A stretch of DNA of 64,000 nt. Origin: Natronomonas halophila (GTDB taxonomy: Archaea > Halobacteriota > Halobacteria > Halobacteriales > Haloarculaceae). The stretch spans positions 744,001 through 808,000 of the forward strand of contig NZ_CP058334.1 in assembly GCF_013391085.1 (NCBI RefSeq), written 5' to 3'. Of the stretch, positions 5,193-20,260 are shown one piece after another; positions within the stretch are counted from its first letter, which is position 1; every line of letters starts with the position of its first letter. Below the pieces are notes generated by a model. That model was given only the letters and a program-made list of their open reading frames with translations. It had not been told where the DNA came from and made no database searches. Made by a program: the position numbers and the translations under genes.

Positions 5193-8051
5193 TCAAAGGC
5201 TGTCGTTCTGCTGGTACATCCGGGCACCAGCGATGGTAAGCACGAGCGCGAGGAGACCGACGAAGCCGAGCGCGGCCGTAATCGGCGAGTCGATTAGACC
5301 GGCACGTTCGCCGACCGGTTCGTCCTCTGTAGCAGTCGCCGTCTCGGTTTCGGTCTGTTCGGTCGAATCCTGCGCGTAGACCGCATACAGCGAGAAGCCG
5401 GGTACCTCGGATTCGTAGACGTATTCGCCGCCCTCACTACTGACGAGTTCGGGCTGGTGGACGTCCCAGCCGCCGTCGGTGTAGTGGCCGAGGCGGATGG
5501 ATTCGGGGCTGCCGCCGGCCGCTTCGAGTTGGGACTCGTCCAGCGTGAATTGGATGGTCGCCTGCTCGTCGGAGATGTTCTCCGGGACGGAGATCTCCAT
5601 CGCCATGAGCAGTTCACCGGGCGTCGCCGGGACGCCATCGGGGAGTTCGTCCATCTGCGCGATGGTCGCCTGTCCGCCAGCGCCCGCGACGAACGTGATG
5701 CTGTCGACGCTGACGTTCTCGAAGTCGACTTCGACGCCCTCCTGTCCGGGCGCAGTATCGGCTATCTGCTGGGCGTCGAACGCGACGGCGCCCGCGGGCG
5801 GTTCGACCTCGGACCCATTGGCCGGGTCCGTCGACGTCTCGTTCTGTGACGTGCCGTCGTCAGTCTCGGTGTTGTTTCCAGTGCTGGCATCATCACTACT
5901 GCCAGCACCAGACCCACCGCCGCCACCACCAGTACCGGCGCCGCCGCTGCCACCACTACCGCCGTTACCGGCACCGCCTTCATTGCCACTTCCGTCGCCG
6001 CTTCCGTCTTCACTGCCATCCTCACTACCGTCTTCGCTTCCGCCACCACTCTCATCGTCACTGCCGTCGCCGCTTCCATCACCGCTGCCATCCTCACTAC
6101 CGTCTTCGCTTCCGTTACCGTCGTTGCCACCGGGGATTTCCCCGACTGCCGCCACCGTCTCCGTCGACTGGATGACGGGCGCATCGCCCGCGTTCGTTTC
6201 GACGCTGAACGCTGCCGCGTCGCCGTCGGTGGCGCTGGTGGTATCGAACCGGATACCGTCTCCATCGGCGCTCTCGATGTGGATACTGTCACCGGCAGCG
6301 GTCGCCGAGGCGTTCTCGTCGACCGAAACCACGATGGCGTTCTCGGAGACCGACACCTCGGAGGCGTCCGACAGCGCACCGCTGACGGTCAGCGACTGTT
6401 TGGTGTCGAAGGCGATGCCGCCGTCACCCTCGAGACCGACCACGACGTCGCTTCCGGGTGCGATTTGGTGGCCTGTCGTGTCGTTGATACGGACGGCGAG
6501 CCCGTTGCTACCGGTCGTGCTGTTCACGCCGGAGTCCAGTTGAGTCGCGTCACCCTCGACGGTGATGTTCGGGGTTCCGACTGCCAATCCGTTGCTGGTC
6601 GTCACCTGTACCGGGTCGAAGGGTCCGTTGTCGACCGGCGTCGTGACGACATCGAGACCGCTCTCGAAGTCGGCCGCGTCCGCGTCGGTCGGCCCCTCGA
6701 AGCCCGACGTGTTGAACCGGACGTTCGAGAGGGTTACCACCTCGCTGTCGTTGATGTCCCTATCGACCGACACGAGAAGGTGGTTGGCCTCGATGGTCAC
6801 GGGCACCTCGGTGGCCGACAGGTCACCGTCGGATTCGATAGTTGCCGTGGTCTGGGCGGACGTATCGAAGGAGAGGGAATCGCGGTGCTGGGTCGGAATC
6901 GCGACGGTGAGGTTCTGGTCGGCGTCGTGAATCCCCGTCGTGAAGGAGTCCCGGCTGGAAATCTCGACGGTCGTCCCGTTCTCGGGAGCACCGTCGAGCC
7001 CGCGAGGGACTGCATAGTCGTCGGCAAATCGGGCGTCGACGCGGTCCGGCAGCAGTCCGTAGGTAGTGGTGTGGCCGTTGATTTCCCATGTAACCTCGCT
7101 CGCATTCGCGTCCGCGGGAACGTCGAAGGTCACCCCGTCAAGTTCGAGGATGGCAGTGTCGTTGCTGGAGCCGTCGAAGCGCGCCACCTTGACGCGGATT
7201 TCGGTCGCCGAGACGCCGTCGCTCGGGATGTACGCCTCGCCGCTGGGGGAACTGACGGTGATATCGCCGACGTTCCGGTCGTGGAAGTCGATAGGCTCCC
7301 CGTCGAGCGAGAGGGTCACTTCGAACTGGGAGGGCAGGTCGCCTTCGTCGCCGCGGAGCACGAGGTTCCGGGCTGGCTCGCTGGGCGTGCCCGTGGGCGC
7401 GCCGAACATCGTCTGGTTTTCCGCGCCCGCGGTGACCGCGGCGGAGAATCCACCGTTCTCGTCGGTCGCGGTCAGTTCGTGGTCGAACGGTTCGACGCGT
7501 AGTTCGTGGGTCGCGGTCTCGCCGTTGACGCTCCATCGGAGGGACCCGGTGTCGTCGCTACCGGGGTCGAACCGGAGGGTCCGGATTTCGACCGCGACGG
7601 GCGGCGAGGAGAGGACGGCGTCGCTGGTCACGTTGAACGCGACGCGGTCGGGGCCGACGTGGGTGACTTCGATGCCCTCGGTCCGGCTCGCGCGTTGCTC
7701 GTCGCCGTACTCTCCGATGACGACCAGTTCGATGTCCTCGGGACCCTGGTTGTCCGCGAACGCGATGTCACTGTCGGGAACTCGGAGTTCGCCCTGGAAC
7801 TCGGTCGGGAACGATTCGTTGGTCGCTTCGACCCGGAGGGTGTCGTCGTCGCTTTCGACACCGTCGGGGAGCTGGTCATCGAAACCGGCGATGAGCGTGG
7901 AGGCGTTTCCCCCACCCCCATCGCTCGCCGTCAGGCCGTGGTGCTCCGCTACCGCCGTTCCGGCGAAGGCGACGCCGCCCGCGAGAACGGACAGCGCCAC
8001 GAGGCCGGCGAGCAGGAGGGCGCGGAGTTCGTGAGTGTGTTCGTCGGTCAT
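5193..8051 (-). CDS. Large surface protein with PGF-pre-PGF domain and C-terminal membrane anchor
   Basis: 952 aa, starting MTDEHTHELRALLLAG with a Sec signal at residues 1-38. The N-terminal two thirds are acidic, beta-rich and repetitive. A Gly/Ser/Asp/Glu stalk covers about residues 637-724. A domain follows that ends in YVYESEVPGFSLYAVYA, the PGF-pre-PGF pattern. After a Thr/Glu spacer a transmembrane helix (SPITAALGFVGLLALVL) and short polar tail end the protein. There is no terminal PGF-CTERM motif before this helix, so a simple membrane anchor seems likelier than sortase processing. A cell-envelope role is inferred. Confidence 0.8.
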   Translation of the reverse strand: MTDEHTHELRALLLAGLVALSVLAGGVAFAGTAVAEHHGLTASDGGGGNASTLIAGFDDQLPDGVESDDDTLRVEATNESFPTEFQGELRVPDSDIAFADNQGPEDIELVVIGEYGDEQRASRTEGIEVTHVGPDRVAFNVTSDAVLSSPPVAVEIRTLRFDPGSDDTGSLRWSVNGETATHELRVEPFDHELTATDENGGFSAAVTAGAENQTMFGAPTGTPSEPARNLVLRGDEGDLPSQFEVTLSLDGEPIDFHDRNVGDITVSSPSGEAYIPSDGVSATEIRVKVARFDGSSNDTAILELDGVTFDVPADANASEVTWEINGHTTTYGLLPDRVDARFADDYAVPRGLDGAPENGTTVEISSRDSFTTGIHDADQNLTVAIPTQHRDSLSFDTSAQTTATIESDGDLSATEVPVTIEANHLLVSVDRDINDSEVVTLSNVRFNTSGFEGPTDADAADFESGLDVVTTPVDNGPFDPVQVTTSNGLAVGTPNITVEGDATQLDSGVNSTTGSNGLAVRINDTTGHQIAPGSDVVVGLEGDGGIAFDTKQSLTVSGALSDASEVSVSENAIVVSVDENASATAAGDSIHIESADGDGIRFDTTSATDGDAAAFSVETNAGDAPVIQSTETVAAVGEIPGGNDGNGSEDGSEDGSGDGSGDGSDDESGGGSEDGSEDGSEDGSGDGSGNEGGAGNGGSGGSGGAGTGGGGGGSGAGSSDDASTGNNTETDDGTSQNETSTDPANGSEVEPPAGAVAFDAQQIADTAPGQEGVEVDFENVSVDSITFVAGAGGQATIAQMDELPDGVPATPGELLMAMEISVPENISDEQATIQFTLDESQLEAAGGSPESIRLGHYTDGGWDVHQPELVSSEGGEYVYESEVPGFSLYAVYAQDSTEQTETETATATEDEPVGERAGLIDSPITAALGFVGLLALVLTIAGARMYQQNDSL

Positions 8052-8190
8052 GGTTCGGTTCGAGCCAGCCGATATGGCTCCGTCTTGGCTGGCACCACCC
8101 ACTATCAAACAAAAGGGGTTGTGACAAACGCGTCCAAACGACGGGCATAGCCGGGGGTTATTAACTACGTAAGAGAGGCCCGAACCCCCG

Positions 8191-10092: not shown

Positions 10093-11061
10093 TCAGTCGT
10101 CGTCCGCGCCGGCGGCCGCCGTCGCGTCATCGGCGTCGGGCAACAGCCCGAGTTCCGCCGCCGTATCGCGGTCCTCGCCGGTCACCATATACGCGATGTC
10201 GTCGATAATGACGAGCAGTTCGGGGAGTTCCCGGATGACGAACCACGCAATTCCGACCAGCGCAACCACCGATAGCGTCTGGCTGATGATGCCCTCCGCG
10301 ACGATGTGGGAGACCAGATAGGGGTCCGTCTCGCCGAACAGCGAGAGGAGATACGGCCCGTACCAGCCGTCGAACCACTGGTGGCCGAAGGCGAGGCCGA
10401 TGAACGTCGTTCGGATGATGTTGAGGACGTAGATGATCGGAATCGCGACCGCAAGCGCCCGGAACTTGCGGCGAAGCGGCGCCTTGACCGCGGCGATACA
10501 GCCGATGAAGATGGCCATGCTCCCGAGGGCGGTACAGGCCATCACGATGTTGTAGACGATGCCGGCGTGGTTCGGGTCCGGCGTCTCGAAAAAGAAGGCC
10601 GCCTCGAAACCGGCGTAGGCCGGTCGGCGCTCGGCGATGGGGCCGAGGTTCGGGTCGTAACCGAGCGCGTCCATCAGCAGGGCCGTCTGACTGGCGACGT
10701 GTTCGACGAGCAGTTGCCGGATGAACGGGAGCGTCTCGGCCGGCAAATAGACCAGCCCCATCACCGCAACTGCTCGACTCAGGACGAACAACGAGTCACG
10801 GCCGCTCGCAAGCAGGTAGCCCGCATAGAGACAGGCCGGGACGCCGACCAGCGCCAACAGCGCCTCGATGATGCTGTTGGAGACGAAGAAGAAATGCGGC
10901 GCCAAGAGAAGCCAAAAAACGGCGAAAAGCGCCCACGTCCCGCCGACGACGTAGCGTGACAGGTCCGGATAGCGTCGCTCGGCGAGGGCGCCACCGCCGA
11001 ACAGGGCCACGACGACCCACGCGAGCGGGTCCGTCACCGCCAGCACGTCGAACGGGAGCAT
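10093..11061 (-). CDS. artA: Archaeosortase A paralog 1 (ArtA1), third conserved Arg absent
   Basis: 322-aa polytopic membrane protein of the archaeosortase A family, which processes PGF-CTERM proteins. The catalytic Cys is C176 (NIVMACTALGSMAIF) and the first conserved Arg is R217 (LNIIRTTFIG). A third family residue is Arg in the sister protein (LADR, R260). In the aligned motif here it is VAEG, placing Gly at 257. The tail is rich in Asp and Ala. It lies 65 bp downstream of the Tat gene on the same strand, which suggests one transcript with artA2. It may be reduced in activity or have altered specificity. Confidence 0.85.
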   Translation of the reverse strand: MLPFDVLAVTDPLAWVVVALFGGGALAERRYPDLSRYVVGGTWALFAVFWLLLAPHFFFVSNSIIEALLALVGVPACLYAGYLLASGRDSLFVLSRAVAVMGLVYLPAETLPFIRQLLVEHVASQTALLMDALGYDPNLGPIAERRPAYAGFEAAFFFETPDPNHAGIVYNIVMACTALGSMAIFIGCIAAVKAPLRRKFRALAVAIPIIYVLNIIRTTFIGLAFGHQWFDGWYGPYLLSLFGETDPYLVSHIVAEGIISQTLSVVALVGIAWFVIRELPELLVIIDDIAYMVTGEDRDTAAELGLLPDADDATAAAGADDD

Positions 11062-11126: not shown

Positions 11127-12143
11127 TCACCAGTAGACCGCGTCCGCCCGATGGTCCGCATCGTAGGCCTTGATTCCCTCGCCGCGCAGGCCGGTGATGT
11201 TGAGGTCATGGTACAGCGTCGAGTAGGTGTAATCGACGAACGTCATCGGCAATCGTAGCTCGCCGTCTTCCCGAATCGCCGTCAGGAGAGCGGTAAAGGC
11301 GTGTTTGTGTCGAGTGTCCCGAACGTAGCCGGCTGCCAGGGGAATCGTCTGGTTCCACGGCGCGATAGCCTGAAACCCCTCCATCGACCGATAGACGAGT
11401 TCCCAGCAGAACAGCCCCGTCGAATCGGCCTCCAGCAGCGACTCGAAATCGACGGGGTCCTCGAAGGCAGCCCGGAGGTCCGCCGCACCGAAGATGACGT
11501 TATCCTCGATCGATCCCGCAATATATCGCGGCACATCGTAATGGCCGTGCTCGCGAAAGCCCGCCATTAGCCCCTCGACCAGTGCCTGCGTCTCAGCGGG
11601 GTCCGTCCCGGTGAACGTCTCGACGATATCGGGGTCGACCGTCCGGTCGCGTCGCCGACGAACCGCAGCCACCATATCAGGCCGAGTTTCGGCGCCAGTC
11701 ACCCGCTCGAAGAACGCCGACGGTTGGCTGAACCCGAAGGTGTAGTTGCCGGCTTCGAAGTCCCGTGTGTCGACGAACAGTTCGGTCAGCCGACCGCCGA
11801 GCCCGTACCTCGAATCGAGGTCTTCGGCATCGCCTCGCGTCGCCGATTCGAAATCCAGCACGTACCGCTCGTCATCGGCGCGCAGTTCGACACCGTCATC
11901 GATCACACGGAGGCGAGCCGAACCGATATTCTCGCCGTAGACGGTCCGCATATTTGCCGAAACGGCGGCGGCGAGATCCTGTTTCTTGAGGTTCGTCCCC
12001 ATACCGAGTTCGCCGTAGCCCAGAATCGTGTTGTGGGCGGCTTTCGCCGCACCGACCGCGGTGAGCGCGCCACCCGCCCCCATGAGGAACTGCCGCCGTG
12101 AGATGTCCTCGAGGTCTTCCGGCAGCCGTGAGTCCTCGCTCAC
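11127..12143 (-). CDS. Tat-exported protein between two archaeosortases, transglutaminase-like Cys-His-Asp pattern
   Basis: 338 aa with GTG start overlapping the artA2 stop (GTGA), so translationally coupled. The twin-arginine signal ISRRQFLMGAGGALTAVG lies at residues 15-31. The mature part is not a family I can name. Residues 243-311 have a helix-start Cys (GLFCWELV, C246), a strand with His (AGYVRDTRHKHAF, H279/H281) and FVDYTYST with D304. Order and spacing resemble the Cys-His-Asp triad of transglutaminase-like enzymes. That reading is inference. The position suggests a partner of sortase-dependent surface proteins outside the membrane. Confidence 0.6.
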   Translation of the reverse strand: MSEDSRLPEDLEDISRRQFLMGAGGALTAVGAAKAAHNTILGYGELGMGTNLKKQDLAAAVSANMRTVYGENIGSARLRVIDDGVELRADDERYVLDFESATRGDAEDLDSRYGLGGRLTELFVDTRDFEAGNYTFGFSQPSAFFERVTGAETRPDMVAAVRRRRDRTVDPDIVETFTGTDPAETQALVEGLMAGFREHGHYDVPRYIAGSIEDNVIFGAADLRAAFEDPVDFESLLEADSTGLFCWELVYRSMEGFQAIAPWNQTIPLAAGYVRDTRHKHAFTALLTAIREDGELRLPMTFVDYTYSTLYHDLNITGLRGEGIKAYDADHRADAVYW

Positions 12144-13093
12144 GCCTCTCGGTCACCTCCGTCGGGTGCTGCTTCCGGACCCCGGAGCGACACCTCGTTG
12201 CCCGTCAGCAGGAAGAGCAGATCCTCCGCGATATCGAGGATTTCGGGCACCCAGCGGGCGACCAGCCACGCGATGCCGATGAGCGCGAACACCGCAAGCC
12301 CTTGGGAGAGCACCCGGTCAGCGAGGAAGAACGACACCAGCGCCGGGTCCTCCAACCCGAAGGCGAACATGATCGGGCCTTCCAGCCACGCCTGGTCGAA
12401 CCACTGGTAGCCGTTCGCCAGGGCGATGAAGGCGTTCCGTCCGATATTGAGTATCCAGATGATGGCGACCGCTACGACTGTCCCGATGGCTTTCCGGCGG
12501 ATCGGCGCCTTGACGGCCGCGATGAGGCCACCGAAAATCGCCATGCTCCCGATGCCCGTACACGCGAAGACGATACGCGACGCCCGGTCGGTCGCCGGGA
12601 AATAGAACGTATTCAAAAGCGACGTCTCCCCGGTGATGTCCTGGACGAGACGCACGCCCTCACCGTAACCAAGCGTATCGATGACCAGCATCGTCTGCCG
12701 GGCGACCGCTTCGATCAACACCCCACGCGCCAGCACCGACGTCTCGAAGGGCAGGTAGATGAGTCCCATGAAGGCGACCGCTCTGGACAGCACCAGCAGG
12801 GAGTCTCGGCCCTGATAGAGCAGCCAGCCGACGTACAGACAGCCCGGAACCGCGACGAGGACCAGCACCGACTGGACGATACTGCGGTGGACGAAGACGA
12901 AGTAGTGAATCAACAACAGCCAAAAGACCGCGAAGAGTCCCCACGCACCGACCGTCAGTCGACGGGCGATTTCACGGCGGTCCTGCCATTCGGCGAGGAC
13001 GCCAGCGAGAAACACCGCGACGACGACCCACGCAAGCACGTCGGTGATCGGAATGACCGACGTCTCCGCCATCGAAAGCGCAGGCAATCCCAT
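12140..13093 (-). CDS. artA: Archaeosortase A paralog 2 (ArtA2)
   Basis: 317-aa polytopic membrane transpeptidase-like enzyme for PGF-CTERM substrates. All three expected residues are present: C178 (IVFACTGIGSMAIF), R219 (LNIGRNAFIAL) and R260 (FFLADRVLSQ). A TATA element lies about 27 nt upstream of the ATG at 13093, which suits a leaderless mRNA. M8 (13072) aligns with the start of the paralog and is the alternative. It is first in a minus-strand run with the Tat protein and ArtA1. It is the better candidate for the housekeeping archaeosortase. Confidence 0.9.
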   Translation of the reverse strand: MGLPALSMAETSVIPITDVLAWVVVAVFLAGVLAEWQDRREIARRLTVGAWGLFAVFWLLLIHYFVFVHRSIVQSVLVLVAVPGCLYVGWLLYQGRDSLLVLSRAVAFMGLIYLPFETSVLARGVLIEAVARQTMLVIDTLGYGEGVRLVQDITGETSLLNTFYFPATDRASRIVFACTGIGSMAIFGGLIAAVKAPIRRKAIGTVVAVAIIWILNIGRNAFIALANGYQWFDQAWLEGPIMFAFGLEDPALVSFFLADRVLSQGLAVFALIGIAWLVARWVPEILDIAEDLLFLLTGNEVSLRGPEAAPDGGDREA

Positions 13094-13268: not shown

Positions 13269-16193
13269 TTAGAACGCGTTGCGACGGGCAGCCAGGAGCG
13301 CGGCACCGAGCAGCGCGATCAGGGCGAGGCCGGCACCGAAGCCGGGCTGGTCCTGGGACGTGGTCTCAGTGGCGGTTCCGGGCTCAGGCGTCGCAGTACC
13401 CTCGGACGGCGTCGCCGTCGGCGTCGCCTCGGTCTCGACAGTCAGCGTCGTGCTGGCGCTGTCGTCAGCGGAGGCGACCTCGACGGTGACGTCACCGGAG
13501 AGGTCGGACGTGCTGATAGTCGACTCGACGGTCGTCGACTCGTTGACGTCCAGACTGACTTCCTGACTGTCGACTTCCGTGTCGTCGACAAGGATCGAGA
13601 CAGTCTGGTTGCCTGCGACGTCACCATTGTTGGTGACATTTGCGGACACGTCAACGTCCTCGCCGGCCTCGACGGATGTCGAGCTTAGCGAGAGGTCGGA
13701 GACCTGGAAGGACGCGCCAGAGACTTCACCAACGACACCAGGCGTCTCGGCGTCATCCTCGAAGGACTGACGACGGATACTGGCGGTGAAGTTCTGACCC
13801 GAGTTGACGCCCGAGAAGTCGAACGTGGCAACGAAGTTGCCCTCGGCGTCAACGGTTGCGTCTGCGGTCTCGAGGAACGGGCTTTCGCCGGTTGCACGGG
13901 CGCGGACGGTCAGTTCCGTACCGGGTGCGACGGTCGTTTCGCCGGTGATTTCGGCTTCCTCAGTCGGCGAAACGCGGACCTCGCCACCACGTGTATCGAA
14001 CGAGGCCTCGCGGTCAACGAGAGTGTAGCTGCCGTTGGCAGATTCTGCCTCGGCACCGCTACGGACGAATTTCTTTTCGTACGCCTCGGTGACCGTGAAG
14101 TTGGCCGTGAACTCGTCGTTGATTTCCGCGTTCTGCTCGTCGACGAATTCGTCGGAGTCGACGATGACGTACAGCGTGTCGTTTTCGAGATCGCTAACGA
14201 CACGCGTGTTGGACGTGGCCATCGAAGTCGCATCACCAGTGGCGGCACCGGGGAGAGTCAGATTGATGGGGTCCGCGTTGATGCCAGCATCTTCCTGTTC
14301 GATGAAGAGGCTGACGTTCCCAGCATTCTGATGGGCTGCCAGGTCACTGATGGTATCGTAGGACCCTTCGAACCCGGAGACTTCAATCTCGTGGACAACG
14401 GTGTCACCGTTGAAGTTCAGACTGGAGTCACGGTCGGGATCCTTGACCGCAATGGTGTCGTCCTCGGTGAGACTCCCTTCGTTAGCAGCTTCGTTGATAT
14501 CCTCAACTTCAGTGAGCTGGTTGAACGAAGCGTAGGGAGCGGTGTGGACAGTAACGCTGGTGTCCTCACGCTGCTGGAGGTTGACAACAGCAACGTTGTA
14601 TTCTTCGGGGGTGTCAGCGTCACCGCTGTGCTGCTCTGCGATTACGTCGTAGAGCGCGTCGCCCAGGACGTAATTGAGGTCAGCTCTACTCTGGCTGAAG
14701 TTCGCAACGCTGCCTTCATCAACGCTGTAGAGCTTGCTCTCGTTGGTGGTCCGACCGAGCCAGTACGTGTTGATGTTGAGTACGACCTCATCATCATCGT
14801 TCGGCTGGACTTCGAAGCTCGCGTTGTAGTTCACGTCCTCGCCGCCGAACGTGAGATTGTACCGATCGAGTTCTTCGGACGTCGCGGAGATGGTGACGAT
14901 GTCACCGCGGTGTTCGTTGATCTGCGTCTCCTCGAATTCGACAGTTGCGTCGGCCGCTTGGCCGACGGAGACCGTAGCGTTAGCGGTCGCGGTCGTGTCA
15001 GTCGCTTCGAGATCAAGTGTGAACTCGTCGCCTTCCTCGATGTCGTATTCTTCGAGGAATGTGGCGTTGAGCGCAACCTCGCTATCGATACCGGTAATCT
15101 CGATTGTGTCGTCACCCACCGGCGTGGGGCTTTCCGAACTGAAGACGTCCTCAAGCTGATCCTGCGTGAGGTTGTCCGACGAGATGTTGAGGTTGTAGTT
15201 GTTACGGTTGGAGTCAACTTCAAGATCGATGGAATCGCCGAGTTCGACCGTGTCGTCGGCGAATTCGGCGCTCATGTCCTGAAGTGCGAATTCGACTTCG
15301 GGGCTGGCACTGGTGTTGTGAGCCGTGTCGATCACAGCACCGGTGTTATCAGTTATTACAGCTTCGCGCTGTGAACTGTTAGCCGAGTTCGCAGCGGTAA
15401 TGACGTAGTTGCCCTCGAAGTTGTCCGTCGAGATCACACGAGTGCGGGTGCTACTATCGACGCTAAATTCCGTCTCAAGGTCGCCAACGGCAGCACTAAA
15501 GGTCGACGCAGTGTCGTCCCATTCTCGAATCTGGAAATTCGAGAGATCCTGACCCGTGGTGGAGCTAGCATCAAAGACGAGCTCCTGACCCTGCCAGCGG
15601 GTCGTACCGGAGTCCCAGGACGCATCGGCGTTAGCTTCGTTCGCGGCTTCGGTTTCACCACGCGTGAGCGTTAGCGTGCCAGTATCCTGCGCACCGCCGG
15701 ATTGCGGATTGAACTGGATGACACCATCGTAGGTGTTGCTGGAATCACTCGGGTTCTGCCAACCGGAGCTCTGGATCGTGAGGGTTACAGTTTCTCCATC
15801 AGCCGGGTCGAAGGAATTATTGAGGCTGACAAAGAGGCTGTCACCACCGTTGCTCCGTTCAACGGAACTGACAGAACTCGAACTCGCGCTTCCACCGGAG
15901 GTGGAGAGGCTAACGTCGGAGCTGCTAATGTCCGACTTAAACCCGTTGTCAAAGTTACTGTCGCTACTGAAGTCGATACTCATCGAATCGACACTAGGTT
16001 CTCCGCCTTGTTCTGTTATCGATGCATCTAACTGAGCGTCGTCACCGGCTGTATCCGGTGATGGGCTGAATTGCGCTGCATTAGCTGTAGCAGCAGCACT
16101 CCCTGCGAACGCCATGGTTCCTGCGAAGACCCACAGGACCATCAGCGCTGCAAGGAATACCGCGCGCAGCTTGCTATTATTATTGTCTGTCAT
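13269..16193 (-). CDS. S-layer-like major surface glycoprotein with PGF-CTERM
   Basis: 974 aa. It starts MTDNNNSKLRAVFLAALMVL, a Sec signal cleaved near residue 36. The long acidic, beta-rich ectodomain has many N-x-S/T sequons (e.g. NESTT, NQTVS) for N-glycosylation. A CARDB/BGTF-like repeat follows at about 850-920. A Thr/Pro/Glu stalk (TPTATPSEGTATPEPGTATE) leads to the sorting signal PGFGAGLALIALLGAALLA, with PGF at residues 950-952. Length and layout match haloarchaeal S-layer glycoproteins processed by ArtA. Codon use is visibly more AT-rich than in its neighbours, perhaps reflecting horizontal exchange or rapid evolution. Confidence 0.85.
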   Translation of the reverse strand: MTDNNNSKLRAVFLAALMVLWVFAGTMAFAGSAAATANAAQFSPSPDTAGDDAQLDASITEQGGEPSVDSMSIDFSSDSNFDNGFKSDISSSDVSLSTSGGSASSSSVSSVERSNGGDSLFVSLNNSFDPADGETVTLTIQSSGWQNPSDSSNTYDGVIQFNPQSGGAQDTGTLTLTRGETEAANEANADASWDSGTTRWQGQELVFDASSTTGQDLSNFQIREWDDTASTFSAAVGDLETEFSVDSSTRTRVISTDNFEGNYVITAANSANSSQREAVITDNTGAVIDTAHNTSASPEVEFALQDMSAEFADDTVELGDSIDLEVDSNRNNYNLNISSDNLTQDQLEDVFSSESPTPVGDDTIEITGIDSEVALNATFLEEYDIEEGDEFTLDLEATDTTATANATVSVGQAADATVEFEETQINEHRGDIVTISATSEELDRYNLTFGGEDVNYNASFEVQPNDDDEVVLNINTYWLGRTTNESKLYSVDEGSVANFSQSRADLNYVLGDALYDVIAEQHSGDADTPEEYNVAVVNLQQREDTSVTVHTAPYASFNQLTEVEDINEAANEGSLTEDDTIAVKDPDRDSSLNFNGDTVVHEIEVSGFEGSYDTISDLAAHQNAGNVSLFIEQEDAGINADPINLTLPGAATGDATSMATSNTRVVSDLENDTLYVIVDSDEFVDEQNAEINDEFTANFTVTEAYEKKFVRSGAEAESANGSYTLVDREASFDTRGGEVRVSPTEEAEITGETTVAPGTELTVRARATGESPFLETADATVDAEGNFVATFDFSGVNSGQNFTASIRRQSFEDDAETPGVVGEVSGASFQVSDLSLSSTSVEAGEDVDVSANVTNNGDVAGNQTVSILVDDTEVDSQEVSLDVNESTTVESTISTSDLSGDVTVEVASADDSASTTLTVETEATPTATPSEGTATPEPGTATETTSQDQPGFGAGLALIALLGAALLAARRNAF

Positions 16194-17036: not shown

Positions 17037-17501
17037 CTACTCCAGCGACCCGAGTCCACGTTTCTTCATCGCTGGCCAGTAGACCCACCAGATGACTATC
17101 CATGTCGCCACGGCGCCCACCGGGAGTACGACGACACCGGAGCCGAACCCATAGGCGCGATACAGACCGACGGCCACCTGTGCGTGGGAGATACCGGTGA
17201 AGAAGAGCAGACCGCCGGTAAGCCGTGGGTCCTCACGATCCACCAGACCCGTCAGGGCTGACGCAAGCGCGCCCGCGTAGAGAAGAACGCCGGCCGGCCA
17301 CGCCTGAAGACGTCGGGGAAGGCCGGCAGTATAGACGAAGAGATACGAATAAAGGTCCGTGAGATGGAACGGGTTGGTGTTAACCAGGCCGAACGCGAAA
17401 ACGAACGAGGTCTCGCGGCCAGCGACGATAACTGTCCACGGCAGCAATCCGAGCAGACAGACCACAAGAATACGACGCGTCGATGAAACTTCGGGGCGCA
17501 C
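17037..17501 (-). CDS. Near-ArtA membrane protein (TIGR04206-like)
   Basis: 154 aa with four or five hydrophobic segments and a GTG start. The pattern (LPWTVIVAGRETSFVFAFGL, NTNPFHLTDLYSYLF) resembles the haloarchaeal family named for its position near archaeosortase A. Here it lies about 4 kb from artA2. Its start is one base past the stop of the DRG GTPase, so the two are probably cotranscribed. The function is unknown. Assistance to envelope assembly is a guess from context. Confidence 0.6.
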   Translation of the reverse strand: MRPEVSSTRRILVVCLLGLLPWTVIVAGRETSFVFAFGLVNTNPFHLTDLYSYLFVYTAGLPRRLQAWPAGVLLYAGALASALTGLVDREDPRLTGGLLFFTGISHAQVAVGLYRAYGFGSGVVVLPVGAVATWIVIWWVYWPAMKKRGLGSLE

Positions 17502-18887: not shown

Positions 18888-20260
18888 GGGCTGTCAGGGG
18901 CCAACACATCACCCTTGGGAGGGGTTTCAACAGTGTGAACTACCCCACATTACTCACCCTCAGCGTGCGCCGTTCGCTCTTGGAGGATGGGGCTTCCTGT
19001 TTCAATGACGCGCTTTGCAGATACGTGCGTATCCACAGGGAACGCAGTCTCCACAGGCGTAGATTCGGAGTGAACCACACCTAGTTCTTCGAGGCCGCGG
19101 GAAAGAATATTCCACGCCGCGTTCGCGTCCCTGTCCGCCTTGAAACCGCACGAGGGACACGAGTGTTTACGAACCCACAGCGGCTTAGCCGTCTTGACAC
19201 CACAGGACGCACATTCCTTCGTCGTGTTCTTCGGGTCAACCGCTACGAGGTGTGTTCCCTCACGCTCGCATTTGTATTCCAGCATTCGAAGAAACATTCC
19301 CCACGCTGCGCCTGCTCGGTTCCGGGAGTTACCGGGCTGTTCGACCAATCTTTTTGCTTCCAAGTCTTCGACAGCCACCAAGTCGTACTTCGTGGCGTAG
19401 TAGTTCGAGAGTTTATGCAGGAAGTCTCGGCGCTTCCGCTTCAAGGCAGCGTGCCGTCGAGCCACGATCTTCCGCTGTTTCTCCCAATTTTTGGAATTGT
19501 GTTCTTTCCGTGAGAGGTTGCGTTTGGCGCGTTCGAGCCGGTCACGTTCTTCATTGAAATCGGGGGGTTCGATGGCGAATCCATCAGTGTCGTGGGCGTA
19601 CTTGAGAATCCCTACATCGATACCGACGACCGTCTCGGGAGTCTCCGGTTTCGCGGGGATGTCTTCGTCCACCTCGATACCGAATGTAGCGAACCATTCC
19701 CCTGTGGGTTCCCGTTTGACCGTGACTTGTTTGATGGTCGAGTTTTCGGGAATGTCGCGGTGGAGATGAATCGGGATCTCCCCAATTTTGCTCAACCACA
19801 ACACAGGCCGCCCACTCGTATTCTTGAGTTTGAAGCCGGACTGGTTGTAGGTGAGCGATCGATAGTCCCGAGGGCGTTTCCACTTAAGCATCCCCACGGC
19901 ACGTCCACTCTCTTTCTGGGCTTTTAGTGTAGAGAGGTTGTCGTAGACGCGCTTGACGACCATCTGCAACACTTTTGAATGGATATCTCCAAGGTCGTCC
20001 CACCACTTCTTGAGCTCTGGGAGTCGTCCCTGTACCTCGTAGCGTGCGGGAGTGTCTTCGGATTCATTGATCAGGTAGAGAACGTGATTGTACAGTTGCC
20101 TACAAGTATCGACATGGTATAGAAGCGTCTCTGCCAAGTTTTCTGTTGGGTTGAGTCGATACTTGTAGTTATACTGCATGGTTTACTTGTCCGATTCGGG
20201 CACTACTTCTTCGCCTTTGTTTTCAAACCTATGCATCAACAGTATGTTGACAATAAATGA
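18888..20260 (-). mobile_element. Solitary IS1341-type element carrying tnpB
   Basis: Approximate extent only. The right end lies between the small membrane gene stop (18887) and the tnpB stop, where GAAACCCCTCCCAAGGG and nearby complementary stretches could form the subterminal structure. The left end is within the ~80 bp upstream of tnpB. IS200/IS605 elements have no inverted repeats or target duplications, so exact ends cannot be set from one copy. Confidence 0.45.
18950..20179 (-). CDS. tnpB: TnpB (IS1341-type), RNA-guided nuclease of an IS200/IS605-family element
   Basis: 409 aa and apparently intact. The RuvC-like triad is D188 (VVGIDVG), E271 (VAVEDLE) and D351 (DRDANAA). A zinc finger C323xxC326...C341xxC344 sits before the last Asp. 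The N-terminal OrfB helix-turn-helix region begins MQYNYKYRLNPTENL. No tnpA is present, so this is a solitary element. TnpB proteins are guided by an omega RNA from the gene's 3' end and right end, here expected around 18890-19000. Its position in a clean intergenic gap indicates insertion without gene damage. Confidence 0.92.
   Translation of the reverse strand: MQYNYKYRLNPTENLAETLLYHVDTCRQLYNHVLYLINESEDTPARYEVQGRLPELKKWWDDLGDIHSKVLQMVVKRVYDNLSTLKAQKESGRAVGMLKWKRPRDYRSLTYNQSGFKLKNTSGRPVLWLSKIGEIPIHLHRDIPENSTIKQVTVKREPTGEWFATFGIEVDEDIPAKPETPETVVGIDVGILKYAHDTDGFAIEPPDFNEERDRLERAKRNLSRKEHNSKNWEKQRKIVARRHAALKRKRRDFLHKLSNYYATKYDLVAVEDLEAKRLVEQPGNSRNRAGAAWGMFLRMLEYKCEREGTHLVAVDPKNTTKECASCGVKTAKPLWVRKHSCPSCGFKADRDANAAWNILSRGLEELGVVHSESTPVETAFPVDTHVSAKRVIETGSPILQERTAHAEGE

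Follow-up and report, generated by a model that had tools for sequence, protein, structure and literature searches.

According to PMC7157517, ArtA and PssD act in one pathway, the lipid anchoring of the S-layer and other PGF-CTERM proteins of haloarchaea, and ArtA-dependent maturation in Haloferax volcanii involves PssA and PssD as well as ArtA itself. The same paper describes artA and pssD as normally unlinked in haloarchaea and the nature of the lipid attached to ArtA substrates as not fully settled (PMC7157517). The known players in the regulation and route of this surface-protein lipidation are ArtA, PssA and PssD. We analysed a window of 64,000 nucleotides from Natronomonas halophila (contig NZ_CP058334.1, positions 744,001 to 808,000; positions below are those of the window) containing a gene, named TGL here, whose neighbours in this and some other genomes are ArtA (TIGR04125) or PssD (NF038088). 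TGL differs from the enzymes of the H. volcanii pathway in that neither the ArtA nor the PssD model matches it. The TIGR04206 'near_ArtA' protein is likewise encoded near artA (17037-17501, minus strand, 137.6 bits), but its family is distinct from TGL. In structure, the closest described enzymes are TglA (9crn), TGase (4xz7), LapG (4fgq), PeiP (8z4f), PeiW (8jx4) and the arylamine N-acetyltransferases, with which TGL shares a predicted fold and the order Cys-His-Asp. TGL differs from these transglutaminase (TG)/papain-like enzymes in lacking detectable sequence similarity to them and in having its own N-terminal domain and its own invariant set of residues (Y202, D203, R206, N215, R224, H279 and H331).

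The TGL gene and its neighborhood

TGL occupies positions 11127 to 12143 on the minus strand and encodes 338 amino acids from a GTG start at 12143, comprising an Arg-Arg signal, an N-terminal domain and a predicted transglutaminase-like C-terminal domain. The initial annotation described a Tat protein, and the N terminus backed this description. A twin arginine, R16-R17 (12093 to 12098), was present in all 29 rows of alignment A2 (described below) that reach these columns and was followed by a hydrophobic stretch; residues 16-40 formed a helix in an AlphaFold model, and the Pfam TAT_signal model gave 13.3 bits, under its cut-off. From this signal we infer that TGL is exported by the Tat route to the cell surface. 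The C-terminal Trp was kept in 32 of the 33 A2 rows with letters at that position. Searches of TGL with TIGR04126 and PF18204 detected no PGF-CTERM, and TGL was therefore ruled out as an archaeosortase substrate.

The sortases reported beside TGL proved to be two archaeosortase A paralogues flanking it, both on the minus strand. The upstream paralogue (12140 to 13093; TIGR04125, 315.5 bits against a cut-off of 75) overlaps TGL by 4 bp, and the downstream one (10093 to 11061; 317.2 bits) is 48.8% identical to it. The next gene upstream (13269 to 16193, minus strand) encodes a surface glycoprotein with a BGTF domain and a PGF-CTERM, which is a likely ArtA substrate. A large surface protein (5193-8108, minus strand) had a PGF-pre-PGF domain (TIGR04213) and no PGF-CTERM match in the model search. 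By eye, a 409-amino-acid open reading frame at 18950-20179 (minus strand) resembled a TnpB-type transposon protein.

Predicted fold and conserved residues

AlphaFold models were obtained for the whole protein (pLDDT 84.6, pTM 0.82) and for residues 159-338 alone (11127 to 11669; pLDDT 81.3, pTM 0.81), which form the putative catalytic domain. In the model, C246 (codon 11406 to 11408) opens helix 246-257, H281 (11301 to 11303) opens strand 281-287 and D304 (11232 to 11234) directly follows strand 295-303, in the order of transglutaminase-like folds. The annotation had located these residues correctly, with C246 in GLFCWELV, H279/H281 after AGYVRDTR and D304 in FVDYTYST. Foldseek searches of the PDB gave no match at an E value of ≤0.001 with the whole model or the domain alone, and the fold was called from a VIA-align re-scoring of Foldseek's candidates, for which the tool note cautions that top Z values of 7-8 are frequent in models without clear matches. 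For the whole model, the best Z was 8.0 (rmsd 3.4, 131 aligned) and the top matches were TglA, TGase, LapG, the amide synthase GdmF, vasohibins and arylamine N-acetyltransferases. The domain alone matched TglA with a Z of 8.8 (rmsd 3.6, 131 aligned), followed by PeiP (7.8), TGase (7.7), LapG (7.1), PeiW (7.0), transglutaminase 3 (6.5) and N-acetyltransferases (5.5-6.3). Almost all of the first 29 rows of this list, with Z values of 3.9-8.8, were TG/papain-like enzymes by title or known fold, and the next row had a Z of 2.8; one of the 29, a flagellar microtubule map chain, was unassignable from its title.

Solved TG/papain-like enzymes thus ranked above unrelated folds, as the initial annotation had anticipated. 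Because the list is made up almost wholly of one superfamily, whose matches extend over the entire domain, and because this superfamily predicts which residues are invariant, we consider it very probable, on the basis of these models, that TGL has a transglutaminase-like fold. A different fold, in which the Cys, His and Asp pattern would be structural, would be in keeping with the absence of Foldseek matches at the above threshold and of sequence-profile matches and with the frequency of Z values near 8 in models lacking clear matches, but the agreement of the two models and the fall from a nearly uniform TG/papain-like list to a Z of 2.8 make it highly improbable.

Sequence searches of Pfam, NCBIfam and the PDB with TGL returned Tat-signal or chance matches only, and none of 35 TGL members had PF01841 (Pfam Transglut_core) above the gathering score among its listed matches. 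HHalign comparison of TGL with 30 PF01841 stretches of relatives gave a probability of 0.2 and hence no sequence link, and NCBIfam has no model for the family. TGL is an unnamed transglutaminase-like family outside PF01841. We did not find it described in the open-licence literature, in which no paper joined archaeosortase or PGF-CTERM with transglutaminase.

C246, H279, H281 and D304 were already invariant in a first alignment (A1) of 22 sequences, consisting of the window and 21 of 28 relative loci (L001, L004, L022 and L025-L028, being the window itself, near-duplicate or partial, were left out). A scan of named genomes yielded 39 loci from haloarchaea or archaeal bins, none of them in Haloferax. 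The second alignment (A2) had 35 rows, the window and 34 rows from 33 of these loci, of which L057 gave two copies; L054, L056, L059, L061, L062 and L067 were left out as broken, cut or partial. A third (A3) consisted of the A2 rows minus L052. Conservation of C246, H281 and D304 in homologues had been set as the test on which the proposal would fall, and C246 and H281 were present in 35/35 A2 rows and D304 in 34/35, the exception being the second L057 copy, which has a Glu. The second His, H279 (11307 to 11309), was likewise invariant (35/35). All four residues were kept in the loci outside A2 that reach residues 246-304 (L054, L056, L061 and L062); the matched stretch of L059 stops short of this region, and L067 is without residues 111-287. 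Just 17 of the 338 positions were invariant in A2, also including Y202, D203, R206, N215, R224 and H331, in a protein with 1 Cys (C246), 7 His and 32 Asp, and the pattern is thus beyond a chance coincidence.

The order of the three residues matched that of transglutaminases, as the annotation had stated, but the spacing was similar rather than identical to that in PF01841 proteins. In TGL, the Cys-to-His spacing was 35 in 35/35 A2 rows and the His-to-Asp spacing was 22-26 in 33/35; the remaining two rows carry inserts and had spacings of 33 and 43. In the PF01841 proteins of relatives (30 stretches supplied, of which 27 fitted the motif), these spacings were 43 in 27/27 and 16 in 26/27, respectively. 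Taken with the model, C246, H281 and D304 are a plausible catalytic triad. It is a matter of speculation that the invariant arginines R162, R206 and R224 could bind phosphate.

Linkage of TGL to artA and pssD

Gene order was examined in a sample of 145 genomes of the window's order at ≥90% completeness, of which 145 had artA, 131 had a pssD match and 28 had TGL. Ten of the 28 TGL genes adjoined artA, 7 adjoined pssD and 11 touched neither gene; adjoining genes were separated by 23-254 bp, measured from one model match to the next. Genomes in which TGL adjoined artA or pssD had one pssD match each and one artA match, or two in the window's own genome. In four of the 11 genomes of the third group (G433, G464, G489 and G497), pssD was on the contig that carries TGL, at a distance of 23-66 kb. 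In a sample of 60 relatives, 24 of 26 TGL genes adjoined artA (21) or pssD (3), including eight relatives in which one artA was found, which TGL adjoins (G002, G003, G004, G005, G007, G017, G019 and G048). TGL was on the strand opposite to its artA neighbours in G018, was present as fragments only in G012 and G013 and was found together with no pssD match in G006 (82% complete).

For the named loci, 37 of the 39 had an uncut 5' side (L047 and L062 were cut there and fall outside the 37). artA was directly upstream in 12, artA was downstream in 8, pssD was directly upstream in 7 and neither was found in 10 (L039, L042, L043, L044, L051, L054, L055, L056, L064 and L066). An HTTM gene lay between TGL and the downstream artA in L050 and L061, as did the second TGL copy in L057. 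The upstream pssD genes resembled NF038088 ('protein sorting system archaetidylserine decarboxylase'); five of the seven were scored, L040, L041, L045 and L049 above the 240-bit cut-off and L060 below it at 219, and L046 and L065 were assigned through similarity to L040. TGL overlapped artA by 4 bases in the window and in L029, L030, L031, L033, L034 and L059 and overlapped pssD by 4 bases in L045, L046 and L060. The upstream surface-protein genes that were tested had a PGF-CTERM in 7/7 cases.

Linkage to artA or pssD therefore recurred in 17/28 genes of the order sample, 24/26 of the relatives and 27/37 of the named loci. Adjacency in 17/28 had a binomial probability by chance of ~3e-42, assuming 4 slots in ~3000 genes and with genomes that are not independent. 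TGL was found in 28/131 genomes with a pssD match and in 0/14 without one (Fisher p 0.042, uncorrected for kinship). Two housekeeping genes, dph5 and trm5, likewise persist close to artA, so that linkage to artA alone would be weak and may be synteny; more weight falls on the movement of TGL between the artA and pssD loci.

In a phylum sample of 392 genomes, TGL was detected in 12, all of them in the window's order, and a plasmid search for TGL gave no match. The named relatives closest to the window TGL in the tree were Natronomonas. By the starred branches, the pssD setting must have changed at least 3 times and the artA-upstream setting at least 2 times, the latter with one change added by L047, which was labelled 'other' despite its cut 5' side. 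These counts indicated that the linkage was gained or retained on more than one occasion. Since 117/145 artA-bearing genomes were without TGL, ArtA does not need TGL. Four copies looked decayed (L067 5308-6462, L054 5965-6989, L061 5893-6993 and G442 C1:417971-418908), with internal loss of residues 111-287 in L067, split frames or an in-frame stop. The second copy in L057 (8622-9617), with C246, H279 and H281 kept and the above-mentioned Glu at D304, was 29% identical to the window protein.

Proposed reaction and alternative explanations

The position of TGL beside artA in some genomes and beside pssD in others, two genes of one pathway, makes it a good candidate for a part in that pathway, and we think it probable that TGL belongs to the ArtA lipid-anchoring pathway as an accessory. 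TGL ties the artA and pssD loci together and is thus a defined, testable candidate for a regulatory step or for one still missing from the pathway. More narrowly, linkage to pssD in relatives, away from artA, points to lipid-anchoring chemistry rather than crosslinking. Transglutaminase-like enzymes load an acyl group on a cysteine, from which an amine or water accepts it. From the computed conservation, predicted fold and linkage, we infer that TGL would be catalytic and would act on the external side of the cell membrane, as part of the ArtA/archaetidylethanolamine-dependent anchoring of the S-layer glycoprotein and PGF-CTERM proteins. C246 would form a thioester with the acyl group of a protein amide before passing that group on. 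The acceptor that we favour is the amine of archaetidylethanolamine, in a second lipidating step or as an aid to ArtA, because this amine lipid is made by the product of the neighbouring gene; we prefer it by a modest margin to water, which would result in release. As a whole, the reading of TGL as a Tat-exported C246-H281-D304 thiol enzyme of acyl transfer in the ArtA/archaetidylethanolamine pathway is one toward which we lean slightly. Its specific reaction, acyl transfer to archaetidylethanolamine, is put forward tentatively, and a role as a second lipidating enzyme, an exported thiol acyltransferase joining surface proteins to archaetidylethanolamine alongside ArtA, is rather doubtful. If true, archaeal surface proteins would be anchored to lipid by a transglutaminase-type reaction.

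The structural matches also suggested a reaction in the opposite direction. LapG releases a surface adhesin, and LapG, PeiP/PeiW and the vasohibins, all proteolytic by PDB title or known function, are among the best matches, so that TGL might be a thiol hydrolase that releases S-layer proteins as the cell grows by cutting the ArtA-made protein-lipid amide or the protein close to this bond. The patchy spread of TGL (28/145) and its decayed copies would suit such an optional regulator. Coupling to pssD, the maker of the lipid amine, is less expected of a releasing enzyme, however, and transferases (TGase, N-acetyltransferases and GdmF) are also among the matches; we regard anchor release as rather unlikely. 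Still less probable is the idea in the initial annotation that TGL crosslinks or trims S-layer proteins, with ArtA merely a neighbour. S-layer glycoprotein genes lie just upstream in the window and in L035, L037, L038, L050, L052, L058 and L063, but the pssD-linked relatives were without a gene like the window's S-layer glycoprotein in the stretch around the locus at a 60-bit threshold. We know of no crosslinked product in haloarchaeal S-layers. The order of transfer, release and then crosslinking or trimming is a preference of ours among reactions that the present computations do not separate.

An unrelated function, the linkage being conserved gene order alone, would account for the 11/28 TGL genes that touch neither artA nor pssD and for the persistence of dph5 and trm5 beside artA. 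The family nevertheless moves between two loci and meets genes of the same pathway in both, often with 4-base overlaps, and the above binomial value, for genomes that are not independent, also argues against this explanation, to which we give little credence. A part for TGL in the anchoring pathway remains the preferred reading.

Three further genes were observed beside TGL in relatives. In Haladaptatus, a pyroglutamyl-peptidase-like gene is directly upstream, in the slot held elsewhere by pssD (L039 4978-5619, with a PF01470 match; L043 5194-5835 and L054 4957-5601, both by similarity). In three Natrialbaceae loci, the upstream gene encodes an unnamed protein in which inspection by eye showed an Arg-Arg signal and a HETLH motif (L042 4844-5938, L051 4937-5857 and L055 4944-5864), for which L042 and L051 gave no Pfam or NCBIfam match. 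An HTTM membrane protein is encoded downstream of TGL in L039 (7162-8532, in two frames), L043 (7042-8547), L050 (7043-8506), L057 (6405-8519) and L061 (6959-8515), as assigned by PF05090 in L043 and L050, by a match under the cut-off in L061 and by similarity in L039 and L057. As it occurs in both the artA and the Haladaptatus settings, the HTTM protein is a possible third partner of TGL.
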